Positions 17,421 to 27,092 of a DNA stretch of 64,000 nt are shown in pieces. The first letter of the stretch is position 1. The number at the start of each line of letters is the position of its first letter. The stretch is taken from NCBI RefSeq assembly GCF_016767715.1, contig NZ_CP050145.1, positions 2,170,001 through 2,234,000 on the forward strand, in the 5' to 3' direction. The translations under genes were made by a program, and so were the position numbers. Source of the DNA: Mycobacteroides chelonae (GTDB lineage Bacteria > Actinomycetota > Actinomycetes > Mycobacteriales > Mycobacteriaceae). The notes beneath the pieces are model-generated. The model searched no databases. It worked only from the letters and a program-made list of their open reading frames with translations, and had not been told where the DNA came from.

Positions 17421-18296
17421 TCACCCGCGGCGGGCTGTGACCACCGTGGTCCAGTCGCCGGGTGCGAGTGCACGCGCGCCGGTGGGATCGTAGCGACGCA
17501 GCAGCTCGGGTATCCGCAGCTGCTCGGTGGTCTGAAAGCCTTGGCGCGCAAGCAGTTCGTCGGCCTGTCTCGCCGTCATGCCCGTGCGGTACGGCTCGCC
17601 GCGCCGGGAGACGGACCGCGATCCGCGCCGGACTTCGCGACGGCGACTGTCGGGGCCGACGATATCGGGATCACCGTAATCCAGGACGAGCCTGCTTCCC
17701 GGTGCGCAGAGCTTCGTCAGTTGCGCCAGGGTCGACTCGAGGGCGGCCTCGGTGAGGTAGTAGGTCACGCCGAGCCACACCACGAGTGAGGGTGCGGCCG
17801 TATCGAATCCGGCGCCAAGCAGACGCGACGTCAGGTCATCGCGCTCGAAATCGCAGGGGACCCAGGCCAGCCGCGACTCATCACCGCGGTGTTCGGCGAT
17901 GAGATGTTGTTTCGCCTGCTGGGTGGTGGGTGCGTCGACCTCGAATACGGTGACGGGCAGGGAACCGAGCTGCTGACTCGAGGTGTCGAAGCCCGCCCCC
18001 AGCATCACCACTTGACCGATGCCGGATCGCGCGGCGGACCGCACTTCGTCGTCGGACACCCGGCGGCGCAGCACGATGAGGGCATGAAGGCCCGCGCACC
18101 ATCGGTCCACCAGACGCAGGCCCCACCTGGCCACGGTGGGAGATGCCAGTGCCGCACGCAGCAGCGGATGGGTCACGAACCATCCGGACTGTGGATCGTT
18201 CAGCAGGCCATCGCGCTGCATCGACTCGGCAGCGCGCTGCCACGCGTTGAACTGTGCGGTCAGACTTGCGGTTTGGTCGAGCCGGCGTCCAGACAT
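17421..18296 (-). CDS. Class I SAM-dependent methyltransferase (LCMT/PPM type)
   Basis: The 291-residue product belongs to the leucine-carboxyl-methyltransferase-like family, abundant in mycobacteria as putative O-methyltransferases. The SAM site shows VVMLGAGFDTSS and the following acidic VFEVDAPTTQQAK. WLGVTYYLTEAAL is the family's post-motif signature. Substrates are generally unknown. ATG 18296 is preceded by TATCCT ending 7 bp away, predicting a leaderless transcript. It converges on mpa with a 9-bp gap. A second protein of the same broad family is encoded at 26268-27092. Confidence 0.78.
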   Translation of the reverse strand: MSGRRLDQTASLTAQFNAWQRAAESMQRDGLLNDPQSGWFVTHPLLRAALASPTVARWGLRLVDRWCAGLHALIVLRRRVSDDEVRSAARSGIGQVVMLGAGFDTSSQQLGSLPVTVFEVDAPTTQQAKQHLIAEHRGDESRLAWVPCDFERDDLTSRLLGAGFDTAAPSLVVWLGVTYYLTEAALESTLAQLTKLCAPGSRLVLDYGDPDIVGPDSRRREVRRGSRSVSRRGEPYRTGMTARQADELLARQGFQTTEQLRIPELLRRYDPTGARALAPGDWTTVVTARRG

Positions 18297-18302
18297 ATCG
18301 CG

Positions 18303-18308
18303 AGGATA
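18303..18308 (-). promoter_or_regulatory. -10 box for a leaderless methyltransferase mRNA
   Basis: On the minus strand the hexamer reads TATCCT (TANNNT) and places the transcription start on the ATG at 18296. Confidence 0.5.
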
Positions 18309-18426
18309 GAAAGTCCGGTGGGCCCGCGAGGGGGCATTGGCATCATCTGGCAGTGCGTGGCATGCGGAGGCGGTGCTGGTCAGTGCGGTCTTCCTAGCAT
18401 GGCGAGTACAGCCCGAGGAGGTATCC

Positions 18427-19041
18427 GTGAAGACCATGAAACCCCGAGAAATGCTTTCCGCCGAGCGCACCAGCCTGGCCGAGTTCCTGCACACATTGAC
18501 CGAAGACGATTGGTTGGCTCCGTCACTGTGCGCGGGCTGGCGGGTCCGCGATGTCGTGGCACACGCCGCCGTCGACGCGGTATCGCTGGGTGTCTATCTG
18601 GGGACCGCGCTACGGAACCCATCGATCAACAAGCTCAACGATGCATTGGTGGAGCGCACCGGTCACCTGTCGAATGAAGAGCTGTTGCACCATTTCGAGT
18701 CGGCAGTGCGGCCCGGAGCGTTTGGCAAGATGGCGCCCGCGGCACTTCATACCGACGCCATGGTGCACCACCAGGATATTCGGCGACCACTGGGCAGGCC
18801 GCGTGCCATTCCCGAGGACCGGCTGGTCTTTGCGTTGGATCATCCCGACTTTGGCGCCCACCCGAAGCGGTACACCAAGGGGCTGAGGTTCATGGCCAAC
18901 GACGTGGATTGGGCGAAAGGCAATGGCCCGCACGTGTGCGGCACCGGGGAGGCGCTGGTGCTGGCGATGGCGGGCCGTCCGGTGGTGCTCGGTGAGCTGG
19001 AAGGTGACGGTGTGCCGACGCTGGCGGCACGGATGCGCTGA
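18427..19041 (+). CDS. Maleylpyruvate isomerase-family (DinB-like) mycothiol-dependent enzyme
   Basis: The 204-residue product is a four-helix DinB-like protein of the mycothiol-dependent maleylpyruvate isomerase family. The N-terminal part has SLCAGWRVRDVVAHAAVD, with a His metal ligand, and the second half has MVHHQDIRRPLG. These proteins use mycothiol to isomerise or detoxify electrophiles; the substrate is unknown. GTG 18427 follows GAGGAGG by 5 bp and is preferred over ATG 18436. It ends 2 bp before the convergent membrane-protein gene. Confidence 0.75.
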   Translation: MKTMKPREMLSAERTSLAEFLHTLTEDDWLAPSLCAGWRVRDVVAHAAVDAVSLGVYLGTALRNPSINKLNDALVERTGHLSNEELLHHFESAVRPGAFGKMAPAALHTDAMVHHQDIRRPLGRPRAIPEDRLVFALDHPDFGAHPKRYTKGLRFMANDVDWAKGNGPHVCGTGEALVLAMAGRPVVLGELEGDGVPTLAARMR

Positions 19042-20251: not shown

Positions 20252-20279
20252 TGAACCAATCGGGCGGTCGGATCGTGTA
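20252..20279 (+). promoter_or_regulatory. SigL-type promoter of sigL
   Basis: TGAACC (20252-20257) and CGTGTA (20274-20279) are spaced by 16 bp. This matches the -35/-10 pattern reported for M. tuberculosis SigL (TGAACC and CGTgtr, from memory). Transcription would start near 20286, just at the GGAGG of sigL. It implies autoregulation. Confidence 0.75.
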
Positions 20280-20296
20280 ACCGTCGGAGGTGTTCC

Positions 20297-20836
20297 ATGG
20301 CGGATGGGCAGGCTGGGCCGAACGGCGTCGGCGTCAATGGCTCATCGAGTCTTATGCGGGCCTTTTACGACGAGTACGCAGGCCCGCTGCATCGCTATGT
20401 CATGTACCTGACCCACGACTCGGCGCTGGCGGAAGACATCGTGCAGGAGGTGCTGTTGCGAGCCTGGCGGCATCCGACGCTGGTCAACCAGACGGAAGGG
20501 TCGGCGAGGGCATGGCTGTTTACGGTCGCCCACAACCTGGTCCGTGATAACGCACGTAGCTCGCGCTTTCGCAGCGAGATAGCCACCGCCGAGACACCCG
20601 AGTTCGCCTCTCCCGATCAGGTGGACGCAACGCTGGACGCGTGGCTGGTGGCCGAAGCGCTGCGCACGTTGTCCACCGATCACCGCGCCGTCATCCTGCG
20701 TGCGTATTACCGGGGGAGTTCAGTCGCCGACATATCCGCCGAGCTGGGGGTGCCTGAGGGCACCGTCAAGTCACGCCTGCACTATGGCGTGCGTGCGCTT
20801 CGGTTGTCGCTGCAGGAAATGGGGGTCACACGATGA
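20297..20836 (+). CDS. sigL: ECF RNA polymerase sigma factor SigL
   Basis: The 179-residue product is an extracytoplasmic-function sigma factor closely resembling M. tuberculosis SigL. Region 2 runs from RAFYDEYAGPLHRYVMYLTH to SARAWLFTVAHNLVRD. Region 4 contains ILRAYYRGSSVADISAELGV and PEGTVKSRLHYGVRALRL. The ending QEMGVTR nearly equals that of M. tuberculosis SigL. ATG 20297 follows GGAGG (20286-20290). The stop overlaps the start of the anti-sigma gene by 4 bp, so the two are made in a coupled ratio. The promoter matches SigL's own consensus. Confidence 0.9.
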   Translation: MADGQAGPNGVGVNGSSSLMRAFYDEYAGPLHRYVMYLTHDSALAEDIVQEVLLRAWRHPTLVNQTEGSARAWLFTVAHNLVRDNARSSRFRSEIATAETPEFASPDQVDATLDAWLVAEALRTLSTDHRAVILRAYYRGSSVADISAELGVPEGTVKSRLHYGVRALRLSLQEMGVTR

Positions 20837-21579
20837 CTGTGGAGCATGTTTACGCCGACTGGGACGCCGCCTATGTGCTGGGTGCGCTCTCGTCCGCCGA
20901 GCGGCGTGAATACGAACAGCACCTGGTCGACTGTGTCAGCTGCCAGCGCGCGCTGTCCGAGGTGACAGCCATGCCCGGTCTGCTGTCCAAGGTTGATCGC
21001 GGTTACGCCGAGAAGATGGAACTCGAAGACCCGCCCGTGCTCGCCAAGCCCGCCACCAGCTGCCCGGTACAGGCGCTGTGGCCCAAGCTGCAGGCCCGGT
21101 GGCGGCGGCAGAGCGCAGTGCGCCGGCTCGCCTATGTGGGTGCGGTCGCGGTGGCCGCCGCTGTCGCGCTGACGGTCTCGTTGGTGCCGCCGCCGTGGTA
21201 TCACCGGCCCGCACCGATGAATGTCGCCGCGGGTTCGTTGCCGGCGGGGGAGCATTGGCAGCCGATGCGCCAGGTGACGCCCTCACCGCTGAGCGCTCAA
21301 GTGGCCATTGTCCAGGACGGTGCCGGCACCCGTATCGAAATGTGGTGCAGCTATCCGGCATACGGAGACGACCCGGATGACTCGGCGGCACCCTATGCAC
21401 TGCGCGTCGGCACCCGAGCCGGCGGGAACATCATCGCCAGTTCGTGGACGGCCAAGCCGGGCTCCGCGATGATGACATCGATGACCGTCCCGGTGGCGCA
21501 GGATCAGATCGAGAGCGTCCAGGTGATCGACAATCACGGTGACGCCGTGCCGTTGGTGTTCCTCGAACTGCGTCGCTGA
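20833..21579 (+). CDS. rslA: Anti-sigma-L factor RslA (zinc anti-sigma, membrane-anchored)
   Basis: The 248-residue product binds and inhibits SigL. The N-terminal ZAS domain has the HX3CX2C zinc motif at His30, Cys34 and Cys37. This domain in M. tuberculosis RslA releases SigL when its cysteines are oxidised. One membrane helix follows at about residues 110-130 (YVGAVAVAAAVALTVSLV), then an extracytoplasmic domain with several Trp residues and Cys172 (WCSYPAYG). The cytoplasmic half should sense redox state. The function of the outer domain is unclear. It is the second gene of the sigL operon. Confidence 0.88.
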   Translation: MTVEHVYADWDAAYVLGALSSAERREYEQHLVDCVSCQRALSEVTAMPGLLSKVDRGYAEKMELEDPPVLAKPATSCPVQALWPKLQARWRRQSAVRRLAYVGAVAVAAAVALTVSLVPPPWYHRPAPMNVAAGSLPAGEHWQPMRQVTPSPLSAQVAIVQDGAGTRIEMWCSYPAYGDDPDDSAAPYALRVGTRAGGNIIASSWTAKPGSAMMTSMTVPVAQDQIESVQVIDNHGDAVPLVFLELRR

Positions 21580-21698
21580 CGCCTACCCCATCAGGTTCGT
21601 GGTGCTTTGACGTGCCCATATCGGCATTACCTGAAACGCGATTCATATTGTGCCATCACATGATTGAGATAACTCGATCACTTTTTCTTCCGGATTGT

Positions 21699-21726
21699 TG
21701 AACCGGTCACGTGTGACAGTCGTGTA
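21699..21726 (+). promoter_or_regulatory. SigL-type promoter driving the ThDP/KAS III/aminotransferase cassette
   Basis: TGAACC (21699-21704) and CGTGTA (21721-21726), 16 bp apart, repeat the sigL promoter exactly in both boxes and spacing. The predicted start site, 7 bp after the -10 box, is 21733, which is the A of the ATG of the first cassette gene, so the message would be leaderless. The surrounding 80 bp are unusually AT-rich. Confidence 0.78.
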
Positions 21727-21732
21727 CTAGTC

Positions 21733-23496
21733 ATGACCACCCCGATACGTGCCCGGAGCCGTATGGCCGGCGATATCGCGCTCGGGAACGGGACCATGCG
21801 CTTGGTCGACTGGCTCGTCCTGGAGTTGCGTCGTCACCATGTCGATGTCGTCTTCGGGGTCGACGGTGCGAACATCGAGGATCTCTACGATGCCGTGCAC
21901 TACGCGCCGGGTATCCAGGCCGTCGTCGCCAAGCACGAGTTCTCGGCCGGCACCATGGCCGACGGCTATGCGCGTGCCGCCTCGCGGATGAGCGTAGTGG
22001 CCGCGACCTCAGGCGGCGGCGCTGTCAATCTTGTTCCTGCGCTTGCTGAATCGTATGCGAGCCGGGTGCCGGTGCTGGCGATCGTGGGCCAGCCGCCGCG
22101 CCCGCTGGAGGGTAACGGGGCGTTCCAGGATGGGAGTGGGCGCGCCGGGAGCATGGATCTGCAGGCGGTTTTCCGGCCCATTTCCGGCTACTGCACCCGA
22201 GTGGAAAATCCCGAGGAAATCGCCGAGGCGCTCGGTCATGCCCTGGCCGCGCTTCGGGACGGTCTGCCGGCGGTTCTCTTGATACCTAAAGACGTCCAGC
22301 AGGCGCGCCTGCACGCCACACCACAGCTGCCGGAGCCGCACGTGCGGCCTGGAGCGGTGCCCGCACAGCTTGCCGACTTCGCCAAGCATCTGGCCGATGC
22401 GCCGGGACGGGTGCTGGTGGTAGCGGGGCCGGAGGTGGCACGACACAATGCCCGCGGCGAGCTATCGGATCTCCTCGATCGTCTCGATGCCTTTGTCGCG
22501 GTGTCGCCCGACGCCAAAGATGCTGTAGACGGCGATGATCCACGGCTGCTGGGCGTCATCGGGGTGATGGGACACCCGGCCGTCGAAAGGGTACTGCGCC
22601 ACGGTGTGACGTGTGTCTGCATCGGGACCACCATGCCCGTGATGACCCGAGGCGGTGTCGACTTCGCGACGACGCCGGTGCTCTCGATCGGTTCGGCGAC
22701 ACCACATATCCCGTCCCGCCACCTGCAGACCGAGGACCTGTCATCGACCCTGGCCCAGCTCGCCGCCGCTGTGCCGGCGCGTTCGGACTCGTTGGACAGT
22801 GAAACGCTCTACGCACCAACCCATCTGGAACCGCCCGAGCATGACGGCGACGGTGTCAGGTACCACGATGGCATGCACGTTCTCGACCGGGTGATTCCTG
22901 CGGAGGCGGATATCTTCGTCGATGCGGGTAACACCGGCGCTGCCGCGGTGCATTACCTGGGCGCCCGGCACCGGGGCCGTTATGTTGTCGCACTCGGTGT
23001 GGGCGGCATGGGGTACGCCTTCGGTGCGGGCATCGGCTGTGCGTTCGCGCGCGGCGGCCGCACCGTGGTGGTCGCGGGGGACGGGGCATTCTTCATGCAC
23101 GGCATGGAGATTCACACGGCGATCGAGCACCGGCTGCCGGTGACATTCGTCATTGTCAACAACAACGCACACGCCATGTGCGTCACCCGTGAGCAGCTGT
23201 ATTACGGAGGGGAGTACAGCTTCAACCGGTTCACGCCCTCGCATATCGGGGCCGGGATGGGCGCGATGTTCCCGAGTCTGATGTGCCGTTCGGCCGATAC
23301 GGTGGCCGATTTCGAGGCCGCCATGCATGCGGCGATGGCCCATGGCGGTCCCGCTGTGGTGGAGGTCATCTGTTCCACCGACGAGATACCCCCGTTTGCC
23401 CCGTTCTTGTCATCCGATATCGCTAAGGAGAAAACGCATGACCGACACGATTGCCGAAGCATCCAAGCCTGGCCTGAAAGCCTTGCCCGCGCTTAG
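21733..23496 (+). CDS. Thiamine diphosphate-dependent enzyme (acetolactate synthase/decarboxylase-like)
   Basis: The 587-residue product has the three-domain ThDP fold. The N-terminal PYR domain carries the cofactor-activating Glu69 (VVAKHEFSAGTMADGYAR). A central domain follows, then a C-terminal PP domain with GDG at 449-451 and NNN from 476 that binds Mg-diphosphate. Relatives decarboxylate 2-oxo acids or join the resulting carbanion to an acceptor. GDGAFFMHGMEIHTAIEH and the ending do not identify which. The start coincides with the predicted SigL transcription start. The last 59 bp overlap the next gene. It is the first of four tightly linked genes. Confidence 0.82.
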   Translation: MTTPIRARSRMAGDIALGNGTMRLVDWLVLELRRHHVDVVFGVDGANIEDLYDAVHYAPGIQAVVAKHEFSAGTMADGYARAASRMSVVAATSGGGAVNLVPALAESYASRVPVLAIVGQPPRPLEGNGAFQDGSGRAGSMDLQAVFRPISGYCTRVENPEEIAEALGHALAALRDGLPAVLLIPKDVQQARLHATPQLPEPHVRPGAVPAQLADFAKHLADAPGRVLVVAGPEVARHNARGELSDLLDRLDAFVAVSPDAKDAVDGDDPRLLGVIGVMGHPAVERVLRHGVTCVCIGTTMPVMTRGGVDFATTPVLSIGSATPHIPSRHLQTEDLSSTLAQLAAAVPARSDSLDSETLYAPTHLEPPEHDGDGVRYHDGMHVLDRVIPAEADIFVDAGNTGAAAVHYLGARHRGRYVVALGVGGMGYAFGAGIGCAFARGGRTVVVAGDGAFFMHGMEIHTAIEHRLPVTFVIVNNNAHAMCVTREQLYYGGEYSFNRFTPSHIGAGMGAMFPSLMCRSADTVADFEAAMHAAMAHGGPAVVEVICSTDEIPPFAPFLSSDIAKEKTHDRHDCRSIQAWPESLARA

Positions 23497-24142
23497 CGAT
23501 ATCGCTGCCGATGCCGGGACCGAGGACGCATTGCCCGGGGTGCATCGGATCGAGACCTCGCCACGCGAGAAGGCGACGCCGATCATCATGGACATGATGC
23601 GGTCGGTGTATCCGCATGACCAGGTGTTCGGCCCGTTCTGCACGGTCCAGGAGTATGTGGACTGCCCGCCCGACGAGTTGCACCGCTACCTGTCCGACAC
23701 TCGTTGCCTGGAGGAGTGGACCTACAGCCTGCGCGGCTTCGAGGAGACCGATGAGCCCGGGTTGTGGGTCGCACATGACCGTTTGGGATCGGACACGCTG
23801 ATCTACACCCGCACGGAATCGAACGCCGAATCCGGAACCGTCGATTATCACTGTGCCTGGGATCAGGGCGATCACCTCTGGATGATCTACCTCATGCGAG
23901 TGGTCGACGCGCAGATCGTGCTTAACAAGCCGGGCTCGGTCGTGCTGTGGACCAACTGCCACCATCCGTTCTACGACGAGAACCCCTATCCAGAAACCGC
24001 TCCGCCCCAACGTAAGCCGTGGGTGGGGGACTTCTGGGACATGTTCGGCGCGGGTCACCTGCTGGAACTGCTGAACCTCAAGGCCATCGCCGAGTATCGC
24101 CACAGCCATGGGCTTCCGATCGTTCCGGAGTGGATGAAATGA
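23438..24142 (+). CDS. SRPBCC-type (START/polyketide cyclase-like) protein
   Basis: The 234-residue product begins MTDTIAEASKPG at an ATG 7 bp after AAGGAG. The body (FCTVQEYVDCPPDELHRYLS, then CLEEWTYSLRGFEE and GTVDYHCAWDQGDHLWMIYL) has the layout of an SRPBCC ligand-binding fold, used by polyketide cyclases and lipid carriers. His residues in TNCHHPFYDE could be catalytic or structural. I cannot assign a reaction. It begins inside the 3' end of the ThDP gene and its stop overlaps the KAS III start by 4 bp, so it is part of a translationally coupled cassette. Confidence 0.6.
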   Translation: MTDTIAEASKPGLKALPALSDIAADAGTEDALPGVHRIETSPREKATPIIMDMMRSVYPHDQVFGPFCTVQEYVDCPPDELHRYLSDTRCLEEWTYSLRGFEETDEPGLWVAHDRLGSDTLIYTRTESNAESGTVDYHCAWDQGDHLWMIYLMRVVDAQIVLNKPGSVVLWTNCHHPFYDENPYPETAPPQRKPWVGDFWDMFGAGHLLELLNLKAIAEYRHSHGLPIVPEWMK

Positions 24143-25152
24143 CCATTAGCATCTTCGACATCTCCAGCTATCTTCCCGAGAACCGGGTCAGCGCCGATTA
24201 CTTCGCGCAGTACGCCAAGGATGACGATCTGGCGGAGAACGTCATGTTCCGCAGCCCGGCCTTCCGGCATCACGTCGCCGCCGACGAGTCCGCGGTGGAC
24301 ATGGCCGAACGTGCGGTCGCCGGACTCAAGGATCGGCACGGCGACAGCGTGCTGGACGAGGTGGACATTCTGCTGACACATACCCAGCTGCCCGACCTAC
24401 CCTTCGTGGGTTGCGGTGGGGAGGTGGCGAACCGGCTGCAGATCCGCCCGGAATGGATCTTGGACATACACAACGGTGGCTGCGTCTCGTTCGTTCTGAT
24501 GCTCAAGCTCGTGCAGCAGATGATGGACTCGTCGAGCGCCCGTTCGGCCCTCATCGTGAACATGCAGAATGCGGCCGGCCAGATCTTCGTACAAGAGCAG
24601 GTGCGCTCCACCGCACAGGCTTCCATTCCGGGGGACGGCGCCACCGCGGCGCTGATCACCCGCGATGGGACTTCCCCGGTACTGGGCATCGAGACGCGGA
24701 ACTTCGGCGAGTTCGCGGGCGACATGACGTACGCGGTGACGCCTCATCGCAAGTACTGGGAGGCCGGGGCAGGGCAGGGGAGGGTGGCGTTCACCGAGCA
24801 CAAGATCAGCAAGGTGCTGGCCCGTGGCAATCGCATGGTGCCCGAGGTGGCCCTGGCCGTCTGCGATCGAATCGGACTTCCGTCAACGGATCTGGACGCG
24901 TTGGTGACCAACCAGCCGAACCGCATATTTCTGCGGAACTGGCGCGATGCCCTGCAGCTGCCCCGGGAGAAGCACCCGGACACCTTCGACGAGTGCGGCA
25001 ACCTCTTCGGGGTGGGCATTCCGCACACTCTCGATCAGGCGATCTCCGACGGTCAGGTCAAGTCCGGCGACACGGTGATGCTGGCAGGTTTCGCCCACGC
25101 CGGTGACTATGCGGCAGCGGCGGCCGTGCGGTGGGGAGGGAGGGGCCTGTGA
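24139..25152 (+). CDS. 3-oxoacyl-ACP synthase III (KAS III)-like enzyme with altered active site
   Basis: The 337-residue thiolase-fold enzyme resembles FabH. The nucleophile Cys115 lies in HNGGCVSF and the third catalytic residue Asn288 in CGNLFGVG. In the motif that normally reads PHQAN, this protein reads TNQPN (257-261), so the catalytic His appears to be replaced by Asn258. Decarboxylation of malonyl-ACP needs that His, so the enzyme may instead acylate or condense without decarboxylation, as KAS III relatives in natural-product pathways do. It overlaps both neighbours by 4 bp. Confidence 0.78.
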   Translation: MTISIFDISSYLPENRVSADYFAQYAKDDDLAENVMFRSPAFRHHVAADESAVDMAERAVAGLKDRHGDSVLDEVDILLTHTQLPDLPFVGCGGEVANRLQIRPEWILDIHNGGCVSFVLMLKLVQQMMDSSSARSALIVNMQNAAGQIFVQEQVRSTAQASIPGDGATAALITRDGTSPVLGIETRNFGEFAGDMTYAVTPHRKYWEAGAGQGRVAFTEHKISKVLARGNRMVPEVALAVCDRIGLPSTDLDALVTNQPNRIFLRNWRDALQLPREKHPDTFDECGNLFGVGIPHTLDQAISDGQVKSGDTVMLAGFAHAGDYAAAAAVRWGGRGL

Positions 25153-26189
25153 CGGTCAGTCCACTCCGATTGGCATTGAACGAGAATCCTTATCGTCCAC
25201 TGCCATCGGTGCGCGATGCGCTCAGGCATGACATTGCGGAGGTGAACAGATACCCCGAGTTCTTGCCCGTGGTGCTTCCGCGACTGATCGCCGAACGGGT
25301 GGGCATGACACCGGAAGAAGTGGTGGTGGGCGTCGGCGCCACCGGCGTCGCGCTGCAGGTGCTGCAGGCGCTCTGTCAGCCGGGCGATTCGCTGGTGTTT
25401 GCGCACCCGACATTCGACGGCTATCCGATACTGGCCGATATCGCCGGGTTGATCCAGGTTCCGATTCCGCTGGCAGATAACGGGATCACAGATCTGGATG
25501 AGCTACTGGGTGCGGCGTATGACGCCGATGCCGCCGCCGTGGTGCTGTGCCGGCCCCACAACCCGACCGGAACACTGATACCCGCGGACCAGGTCTATGA
25601 GTTCGTCCGCGCGGCGCCGCCGACCAGTGTGGTGATCCTCGACGAGGCCTACATCGAATTCGTGGATCCCGACGAACATCTGGACGTTCCGCTTCTTCTT
25701 GCGATACACCCGAACCTGGTGGTGCTGCGTACCTTCTCGAAGGCATACGGGTTGGCGGGGCTGCGGATCGGCTATGGGTTGGCCGCTCCCGCGGTCTGTG
25801 GTGTCATTCGTAGATACCAGCTCCCATTCGGCATGAACCGTGCGGCGGCAGTGGCGGTGGCCGCCTCGTATGCGGCCGAAGACGAGCTGCGACTGCGGGT
25901 CGATTCTATTGTCTACGAGCGTGATCGGCTCAGGGAACGGCTCGCTCAGATGGGTGCGCATATCCCGGAGTCGCATGCCAATTTCGTGTATCTGCCGGCG
26001 CGCGGTGACGGCGAGCGCTGGATGTCCATCCTGGGAACCGATGATGTTGTCGCGAAGGAGTATCCCGATGGCGGTGTTCGGCTCACCGTCGGCGACCCAC
26101 GAGAAATGGCGATCGTCGCGCGGCGGCTGCTGGAGGTCGACGAGATCGGCGAAAGCGCAGCGCCGCAGTTGAGTAGACCGGCGTCATAG
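25149..26189 (+). CDS. PLP-dependent aminotransferase, HisC-like (class I/II)
   Basis: The 346-residue fold-type I aminotransferase resembles histidinol-phosphate and aromatic aminotransferases. Visible motifs are LNENPYRPLPSV at the N-terminus, VGVGATGVALQ, CRPHNPTGTL, ILDEAYIEF (Asp and Tyr that contact PLP) and TFSKAYGLAGLRIGYG with the Schiff-base Lys. The start GTG 25149 overlaps the KAS III stop (GTGA). Chromosomal hisC belongs with other his genes; none is here, and the gene is embedded in a four-gene cassette. It probably aminates a keto intermediate made by the cassette (inference). Confidence 0.85.
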   Translation: MTVSPLRLALNENPYRPLPSVRDALRHDIAEVNRYPEFLPVVLPRLIAERVGMTPEEVVVGVGATGVALQVLQALCQPGDSLVFAHPTFDGYPILADIAGLIQVPIPLADNGITDLDELLGAAYDADAAAVVLCRPHNPTGTLIPADQVYEFVRAAPPTSVVILDEAYIEFVDPDEHLDVPLLLAIHPNLVVLRTFSKAYGLAGLRIGYGLAAPAVCGVIRRYQLPFGMNRAAAVAVAASYAAEDELRLRVDSIVYERDRLRERLAQMGAHIPESHANFVYLPARGDGERWMSILGTDDVVAKEYPDGGVRLTVGDPREMAIVARRLLEVDEIGESAAPQLSRPAS

Positions 26190-26267: not shown

Positions 26268-27092
26268 TCAGAATGCGTAGCGGTGATACTGCGCCATGTA
26301 CCGCAGCGTCGGCGATACCGACATCGCCTTGGCGAGAAGCCGATACGCGGTCCTGGTCTGTTGGAAGGTCGCCGAATCGAAGGGTGACTCCCACTCGAGG
26401 AGCTGCAGCTTGGGGATCTCGCGAATAATGTCTTCGGGACCGTCGATGCCCCAATACAGGGTCGCCCCCGAGCGTCGCACCACCGCGTTCGACCACTGCG
26501 TCTTGATGCCGAACCTGTTGAACGCATCGAATTGCAGTTCCCCGTAGGGAAAGTGATCGACAATCCGGCGAAACAGGGCGATGCCGTCGGCCTGCGTGAG
26601 ATACATGGTGAGCCCCTCTCCGATTGCGAGCACCGGGCGGTCGCCCCGAATGTGCGCGAGCCATGCCGGATCGGTCACCGATGCGGACACGACGTGATAG
26701 TTATCGCGTGTCGGATAGAGCTGGCTGCGCAGCGCCGCCACGTCGGGGTAATCGATGTCGTACCACTGGACTCCCGCGCCGGGGTTCAGCCGGAAATACC
26801 GGCCGTCGAGACCGCAGCCCAGATGCAGCACCACGGCCTCGGCGTGCCTGGACAGAAAGGCGCGCGCCCAGCCGTCGAAATGTGCGGAACGGGTGGTGAC
26901 GGCCGGTGACCTACCCGCGGTGATGGTCGTCTTGGACCAGTCGTAGTCGATGCGGTCGGCGATGTCACGGGCCAGCCGGTCGCCGAGGATCGGCTTCGGC
27001 AGATCGGCATCCAATGCCTTGGCGTAGAACGTCGCCAGCATGGTCTGCGGTGCTCCGCTGAGGTCGACATGGATCTTCTCTGGGCGGCTCAT
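26268..27092 (-). CDS. Class I SAM-dependent methyltransferase (PPM/LCMT-like O-methyltransferase)
   Basis: The 274-residue product resembles O-methyltransferases annotated as involved in polyketide biosynthesis. The SAM site is VVLHLGCGLDGRY with acidic partner WYDIDYPDV. VLAIGEGLTMYLT matches the family's third motif. It converges on the aminotransferase gene, so it is not in the SigL operon but could tailor its product. This is weak inference from position. It is divergent from dop with a 92-bp gap. Confidence 0.75.
   Translation of the reverse strand: MSRPEKIHVDLSGAPQTMLATFYAKALDADLPKPILGDRLARDIADRIDYDWSKTTITAGRSPAVTTRSAHFDGWARAFLSRHAEAVVLHLGCGLDGRYFRLNPGAGVQWYDIDYPDVAALRSQLYPTRDNYHVVSASVTDPAWLAHIRGDRPVLAIGEGLTMYLTQADGIALFRRIVDHFPYGELQFDAFNRFGIKTQWSNAVVRRSGATLYWGIDGPEDIIREIPKLQLLEWESPFDSATFQQTRTAYRLLAKAMSVSPTLRYMAQYHRYAF

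Follow-up and report, generated by a model that had tools for sequence, protein, structure and literature searches.

The stretch of the Mycobacteroides chelonae genome analysed here, hereafter the window, covers 64,000 nucleotides (contig NZ_CP050145.1, positions 2,170,001 to 2,234,000 of the forward strand) and carries, on its plus strand, a unit in which a sigma factor gene and its anti-sigma partner are followed by a four-gene biosynthetic cassette. The gene sigL (20297–20836), assigned by a family model and a solved relative, encodes an extracytoplasmic function (ECF) sigma factor, and rslA (20833–21579) encodes a zinc-type anti-sigma factor with an HXXXCXXC motif, recognized by PF13490 (zf-HC2). 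The cassette comprises a thiamine diphosphate (ThDP)-dependent enzyme resembling CqsB3/NzsH (21733–23496; three TPP Pfam domains), an SRPBCC cyclase resembling the carbazole synthase CqsB2 (23438–24142; match to 6ipv), a condensing enzyme of β-ketoacyl-acyl carrier protein synthase III type (KASIII-like; 24139–25152; Pfam and alignments) that resembles CqsB1 and has C115, N258, and N288 in place of Cys-His-Asn, and a HisC-like aminotransferase resembling CqsB7 (25149–26189; PF00155). Reading frames overlap between sigL and rslA and between each neighbouring pair of cassette genes. Two copies of TGAACC-N16-CGTGTA, assigned as promoters by motif scan and cross-locus conservation, stand before sigL-rslA (20252–20279) and before the cassette (21699–21726); their hexamers are identical, and their 16-bp spacers differ in sequence. 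An earlier note on this DNA had proposed a SigL unit with these two promoters and a coupled cassette, and this outline is borne out by the motif positions, the Pfam assignments, and the overlaps, although its guess at the product was incomplete. The 153 bp that it gave as the distance from rslA to the second promoter is the distance to the ThDP ATG, whereas the motif itself begins at 120 bp.

The window sigma factor scores 227 bits (cut-off 202) against the NCBIfam model PRK09645.1, which we take to be the SigL model. Its best solved relative is Mycobacterium tuberculosis SigL (6dv9, 201 bits), and His54, a residue of −10 recognition, is kept. Directly downstream of the sigma gene, HXXXCXXC occurs in one of the three frames at all 98 of 98 loci. 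The RslA match reaches 67–107 bits at the canonical loci L135–L153 versus 42–49 at seven of eight paralogue loci, a contrast that only leans toward SigL orthology because the paralogue stretches of about 1.5 kb cut the anti-sigma gene short. Orthology of the sigma factors was judged from best hits and RslA, in a sample without M. tuberculosis itself; no sigma factor in 396 genomes sampled from the genus came closer to its SigL than 93% identity, and that of genome G016 is not identical to it. In some mycobacteria, another SigL-like sigma factor is encoded away from the cassette (L207–L214), with an anti-sigma-like stretch beside seven of the eight. In M. tuberculosis, RslA is a zinc anti-sigma factor whose oxidation lowers its affinity for SigL (PMC2877774), and in M. 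mucogenicum the levels of both sigL mRNAs increase on entry into stationary phase (PMC6917791).

Rarity of the promoter motif was considered as proof of function and rejected. In the 5.06-Mb genome, TGAACC-N15-17-CGTGTR gave three matches, as many as the backward control; the third match, which has a spacing of 17 (C1:1433171), falls within the opening codons of a reading frame that by eye resembles a ketosynthase. At a spacing of 16 bp, TGAACC/CGTGTR occurs genome-wide at two sites only, both in this unit. When up to two mismatches were allowed, the window held six matches versus 3.26 expected, a number reached in nine of 100 shuffles, and only the two promoters were exact. The possibility that the motif is common by chance had been raised beforehand; its frequency is indeed not above the control, but chance is excluded by the pairing, position, and cross-species conservation of the two motifs. 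A wider scan of the same genome with TGAACC-N16-CGTNT returned 10 matches versus three in the control, from which no wider regulon is claimed. Two near-identical TGAACC-N16-CGTCT sites (G000:C1:239218 and 240978), 1.76 kb apart on the minus strand, probably belong to a repeat. The hexamers before sigL itself are presumably those of the M. tuberculosis SigL literature. For the −10 element of that sigma factor, the consensus TGN(C/A)AG, with CG preferred ahead of it, has been reported (PMC6372665). Its first four positions are matched at both sites and position five at the sigL site, while the last two are both mismatched before the cassette. The spacer of the cassette promoter also holds an inverted repeat, GTCACgtGTGAC (21706–21717), intact by eye in five of eight loci of the lineage, which is a possible operator.

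Conservation was measured with the query TGAAC-N17-CGT in a named set of 80 loci, the best 80 of 486 stretches encoding an SRPBCC relative, to which unnamed loci were added. The motif lies upstream of sigL in 53 of the 57 named loci that have this gene, and 60 of the 80 loci have it ahead of the ThDP gene. When the spacing was varied between 8 and 25, the other values gave zero to six matches, with the exception of spacing 14 (8 for sigL, 14 for ThDP). Where a sigma gene lay within 3 kb upstream (sigma-adjacent), 70 of 72 cassettes bore the motif versus 11 of 46 elsewhere, counts that are not independent because the overlapping named and unnamed sets share some genomes. By set, the sigma-adjacent figures were 52/53 named, 13/14 unnamed, and 5/5 other-genus loci, and those without an adjacent sigma were 7/26, 1/5, and 3/15, one named locus lacking a ThDP match being left out of the split. 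Furthermore, at five of the 11 motif-bearing non-adjacent loci (L108, L111, L115, L159, and L168), a sigma gene stands further off or is divergent. The motif also precedes sigL at all 20 sigL loci that have no adjacent cassette (L134–L153). In most genomes having both promoters, the −35 element and the spacing are common to the two, and the last −10 bases often differ.

These sequence comparisons strongly support control of the cassette by SigL, and we infer that its expression depends on SigL in vivo. A different ECF sigma factor with a similar −35 preference is decidedly unlikely to be the one that recognizes the cassette promoter, with the sigL neighbourhood merely inherited. The Gln at position 60 of the window sigma factor, discussed below, and the SigL-like paralogues of some mycobacteria would suit such an arrangement; however, the window genome has only one SigL-like gene at E < 1e-30, the two promoters share −35 and spacing in most genomes with both, and the motif tracks sigma adjacency.

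The cassette mRNA is likely leaderless, with a start at about 21732–21735, the exact base being beyond sequence reading. In eight of eight loci of the Mycobacteroides lineage, an ATG stands at the same distance after CGTGTACTARTC, and insertions beyond it preserve the frame, their lengths being multiples of three. Of two subsequent in-frame ATGs of the window, the one at 21763 is kept in none of the eight and the one at 21796 in three. All eight retain an in-frame GTG further downstream, which reads TTG in the window, so a later ThDP start is still conceivable.

The cyclase points to the chemistry of the cassette. A search of the PDB with an SRPBCC profile returned a single distinct sequence, CqsB2 (6ipv, E 2e-56), and the window protein alone matched it at E 4e-46. 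In carquinostatin biosynthesis, CqsB2 acts as the carbazole synthase: the aminotransferase CqsB7 converts tryptophan into indole-3-pyruvate, the ThDP enzyme CqsB3 joins pyruvate, the KASIII-like CqsB1 performs a decarboxylative condensation with acyl-ACP (acyl carrier protein), and CqsB2 closes the ring (PMC7466098). The residues named for CqsB2, Glu105, Tyr144, Tyr172, His206, and Glu209 (PMC7466098), align to D114, Y151, Y179, H207, and E210 of the window protein, four of the five being identical. The register of this alignment is supported by the CqsB2-type cyclases of loci L189–L192, which read E-Y-Y-H-E at these columns in four of four cases. Streptomyces cattleya, Sorangium, and Scytonema are listed as further carriers in the review of this pathway, in which the string "mycobacteri" does not occur (PMC7466098). 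The window-type signature, D-Y-Y-H-E, was found in 99 mycobacterial, 20 other-family, and nine g34 rows. A structure model of the cyclase built from 12 sequences reached a mean predicted local distance difference test score (pLDDT) of 58.6 and was not used.

Locus L189 (genome G855, genus g34, presumably Streptomyces) served as a control. Its cyclase scores 526 bits against CqsB2, it also encodes KASIII, ThDP, squalene/phytoene-synthase-type, and aminotransferase genes, and it is, judged by this content, a cluster of the carquinostatin (cqs) or neocarazostatin (nzs) type. Against L189–L192, the window ThDP enzyme scores 238–260 bits, the cyclase 159–165 bits, and the KASIII-like enzyme 109–151 bits for the CqsB1-type enzymes versus 46–60 for the second KASIII of L189–L191. 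The aminotransferase scores 262–273 bits (44–47% identity) against L189–L191 and 139 bits (34%) against L192; its nearest paralogue in its own genome stands at 39% and 227 bits, obtained with another tool. The nearest solved relatives of the window ThDP enzyme are BbmA and CsmA. Taken together, the assignment of the cassette as a carbazole-core enzyme set forming a distinct branch is well supported.

The acyl-amino or acyloin-type product suggested in the earlier note stops at an intermediate of such a pathway, although an acyloin is indeed its second step. That a plain acyloin or acyl-amino metabolite is the end product, with the SRPBCC protein only binding or protecting it, agrees with the presence of the ThDP and KASIII-like enzymes. 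It is nonetheless improbable, since outside the window lineage the SRPBCC protein is the best conserved of the four (72–81% in the genus sample versus 48–66% for the other three) and all 119 rows from mycobacteria and the rest of the family keep D-Y-Y-H-E.

The order secY-adk-mapA-sigL-rslA-ThDP-SRPBCC-KAS-aminotransferase-MarR was found at 54 of 139 ordered loci, and secY-adk-mapA-sigL-rslA-MarR, with the cassette absent, at 19. Because the flanks are the same, the canonical sigL locus is a single site at which the cassette either occurs or is missing; the 54:19 ratio is not a frequency because loci were partly picked for having or lacking the cassette. Fourteen of the 19 cassette-less loci come from genomes without an SRPBCC match and five (L149–L153) from genomes with a cassette elsewhere; at L152, rslA and MarR lie 3.4 kb apart. 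No promoter scar was found in 16 rslA-MarR gaps at cassette-less sites; one motif match lay inside the 3.4-kb gap of L152, and three of the 20 loci were not measurable. In the window lineage, the unit is placed instead between mpa and pafA, both named by look. In other genera of the family, five of 20 loci have sigL-rslA adjoining the cassette, and by this synteny, the sigL-rslA-cassette unit is old. That many mycobacteria conserve it at the canonical sigL locus, and that it recurs in these other-genus loci, had been missed when the unit was first described.

Of the 60 genomes sampled in the genus, 37 carry the SRPBCC gene and 51 a SigL-like gene. Among the 37 cassette genomes, only G041 (89% complete) lacks a SigL-like gene, leaving 36 with both. 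Across the family sample, the cyclase is encoded by 82 of 251 genomes, spread over 15 of 31 genera; in the phylum sample, 14 of 396 genomes have it, 13 of them belonging to this family. A Burkholderia cyclase (P0195) is 73% identical to that of the window, which suggests transfer between phyla. This patchy presence, together with the conserved promoter and synteny, largely contradicts the scarcely credible alternative that the cassette belongs to housekeeping branched-chain or histidine metabolism and sits beside sigL by chance. Automatic names do point that way (acetolactate synthase, histidinol-phosphate transaminase), but the scores fall below the cut-offs for both (202 versus 538 for acetolactate synthase, 239 versus 277 for HisC).

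Several neighbours and variants of the cassette deserve mention. At the 54 loci with the full order, a MarR-family gene lies 3′ of the aminotransferase (e.g., L127, 12743–13255, with MarR domains by Pfam). In M. tuberculosis, the MarR regulator Rv0737, encoded near sigL-rslA, binds the sigL-rslA promoter region (PMC13002591); the MarR neighbour is presumably its orthologue and may sense the cassette product. In the window, the unit is flanked by two minus-strand methyltransferase-like genes: one at 26268–27092, matching PF04072 and, below cut-off, TIGR00027, and the other at 17421–18494, with about 30% resemblance to genes near sigL in other mycobacteria. At L156 (genome G074, another genus), a second KASIII-like gene follows the aminotransferase. 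The sigL-less copies L045, L053, and L128 (in part also L051, L100, and L121) read ThDP-cyclase-KASIII-AMP ligase-MMPL-O-methyltransferase-methyltransferase-P450, without the aminotransferase, Pfam assignments covering five L045 proteins and one L053 protein; this row suggests a lipid-like, exported product at those mycobacterial loci.

The arrangement is consistent with an autoregulated stress switch that would drive a minimal carbazole-type pathway. Under reducing conditions, RslA would hold SigL, and oxidation of its HXXXCXXC zinc site would free the sigma factor to transcribe sigL-rslA and, from 21699, the four-gene, probably leaderless mRNA. The aminotransferase would then convert tryptophan into indole-3-pyruvate, the ThDP enzyme would carboligate it with pyruvate, the KASIII-like enzyme would condense the intermediate with an acyl chain out of the host fatty-acid pool, and the SRPBCC cyclase would close and aromatize ring A to give an alkyl-hydroxycarbazole. 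Such a product could act as a radical scavenger like known bacterial carbazoles, perhaps in the envelope. A potential for antioxidant action on free radicals has been ascribed to bacterial carbazoles (PMC7466098). We consider it probable that the SigL-RslA switch drives alkyl-carbazole synthesis from tryptophan, pyruvate, and an acyl thioester, the product plausibly being a radical scavenger; the substrates, the product, and its role are what we infer here. A redox switch driving an antioxidant would be the simplest joining of the facts.

A number of observations weigh against this proposal. On the regulatory side, M. tuberculosis SigL owes its −11 specificity to Asp60 (PMC6372665), a position occupied by Gln in the window sigma factor, as also in four other window-lineage rows and seven of seven other-genus rows. 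Sigma trees place the window protein outside canonical SigL, near other genera and paralogues on long branches, a picture that early branching of the window lineage would equally give. Most cassettes that stand apart from a sigma gene are devoid of the motif, which means that SigL cannot be the sole regulator of the cassette chemistry. The inducing signal may also be other than oxidative, given that SigL and Rip1 have been tied to iron and zinc balance in M. tuberculosis (PMC10449499). On the enzymatic side, the Cys-His-Asn triad of the cqs/nzs core KASIII reads Cys-Asn-Asn in all window-type rows (99 mycobacterial, 20 complete other-family, and nine g34 rows, with two partial other-family rows agreeing where covered), and Glu105 of the cyclase is Asp in every window-type row examined. 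The catalytic His is kept in the carquinostatin-type L189 and L192, the KASIII proteins of L190 and L191 having fallen below the score limit and been left out of the alignment. The window KASIII-like enzyme is only 25–29% identical to the two CqsB1-type enzymes aligned, and the block itself contains neither an acyl carrier protein of its own nor a second KASIII.

The cassette was accordingly filed as a variant, not a member, of the cqs/nzs core on account of the Cys-Asn-Asn triad, and the two substitutions mean that its chemistry may differ from that of carquinostatin. A β-keto acid readily loses CO2, so the condensing enzyme might work without His. The same substitutions, which separate this branch from carquinostatin-type clusters, leave some room for the same reaction order with another arylpyruvate (phenyl- or hydroxyphenylpyruvate), leading to a non-carbazole aromatic such as an alkyl-naphthol, and the aminotransferase belongs to a broad family, its highest-scoring NCBIfam model reaching 319 bits, short of the cut-off of 374. 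This outcome appears unlikely, since four of the five cyclase catalytic residues and their surrounding motifs are kept, the aminotransferase is closer to those of the carbazole-type L189–L191 than to its own-genome paralogue, and NzsH has been described as belonging to a distinct group that uses indole-3-pyruvate (PMC9822442).

Most work on SigL has been done in M. tuberculosis, where its targets appear miscellaneous. If its conserved partner is a carbazole pathway, the signal, output, and evolutionary history of SigL become jointly testable, and a broad set of environmental and opportunistic bacteria, from which we found no such compound reported, would be predicted to make an antioxidant class of alkaloid. 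The His-to-Asn ketosynthase branch additionally poses a clean enzymology question. Neither a link between SigL and carbazoles nor one between mycobacteria and carbazoles was found among the titles, abstract openings, and passages covered in the open-licence literature, and the earlier note, which knew of no described SigL-driven cassette of this make-up, agrees with that search. We take the consecutive gene numbers of M. tuberculosis to leave no room for a cassette beside its sigL-rslA. A bolder proposal, to which we give somewhat less than an even chance, is that the ancestral job of SigL in this family was to turn on an alkyl-carbazole radical scavenger under oxidative or envelope stress, that mycobacteria are unrecognized carbazole producers whose KAS works without His, and that M. 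tuberculosis-like lineages kept the switch and lost its main output.

Among known systems, the regulatory half of the unit is like M. tuberculosis SigL-RslA in family model, solved relative, and zinc motif; characterized SigL promoters there include pks10 and Rv1139c (PMC6372665). With regard to the product, antioxidative lipocarbazoles from Tsukamurella pseudospumae are named in a reference title (PMC7466098), and at least one Tsukamurella strain (P0244) has the cyclase gene. The likeness thus lies in antioxidative carbazoles from a genus with this gene; no gene cluster for lipocarbazoles was found in the literature searched, and their link to the cyclase gene is presumptive. The chlocarbazomycin (chlCz) cluster of Streptomyces tubbatahanensis likewise encodes a HisC-type transaminase, a TPP-binding protein, a 3-oxoacyl-ACP synthase, and an SRPBCC carbazole synthase, but it additionally encodes an ACP, oxidases, and an enzyme proposed to be a halogenase. 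The functions of this cluster are proposals of its source, in whose consulted passages no link to SigL was found (PMC10100901). The cqs/nzs clusters of Streptomyces are ordered KAS-cyclase-ThDP, whereas the window reads ThDP-cyclase-KAS-aminotransferase, with Cys-Asn-Asn in the KASIII, Asp for Glu105 in the cyclase, an ECF sigma factor alongside, and a block without ACP, second KASIII, or prenyltransferase. What the window shares with cqs/nzs are the four enzyme types, the same predicted order of action, and the Tyr, Tyr, His, and Glu residues of the cyclase.

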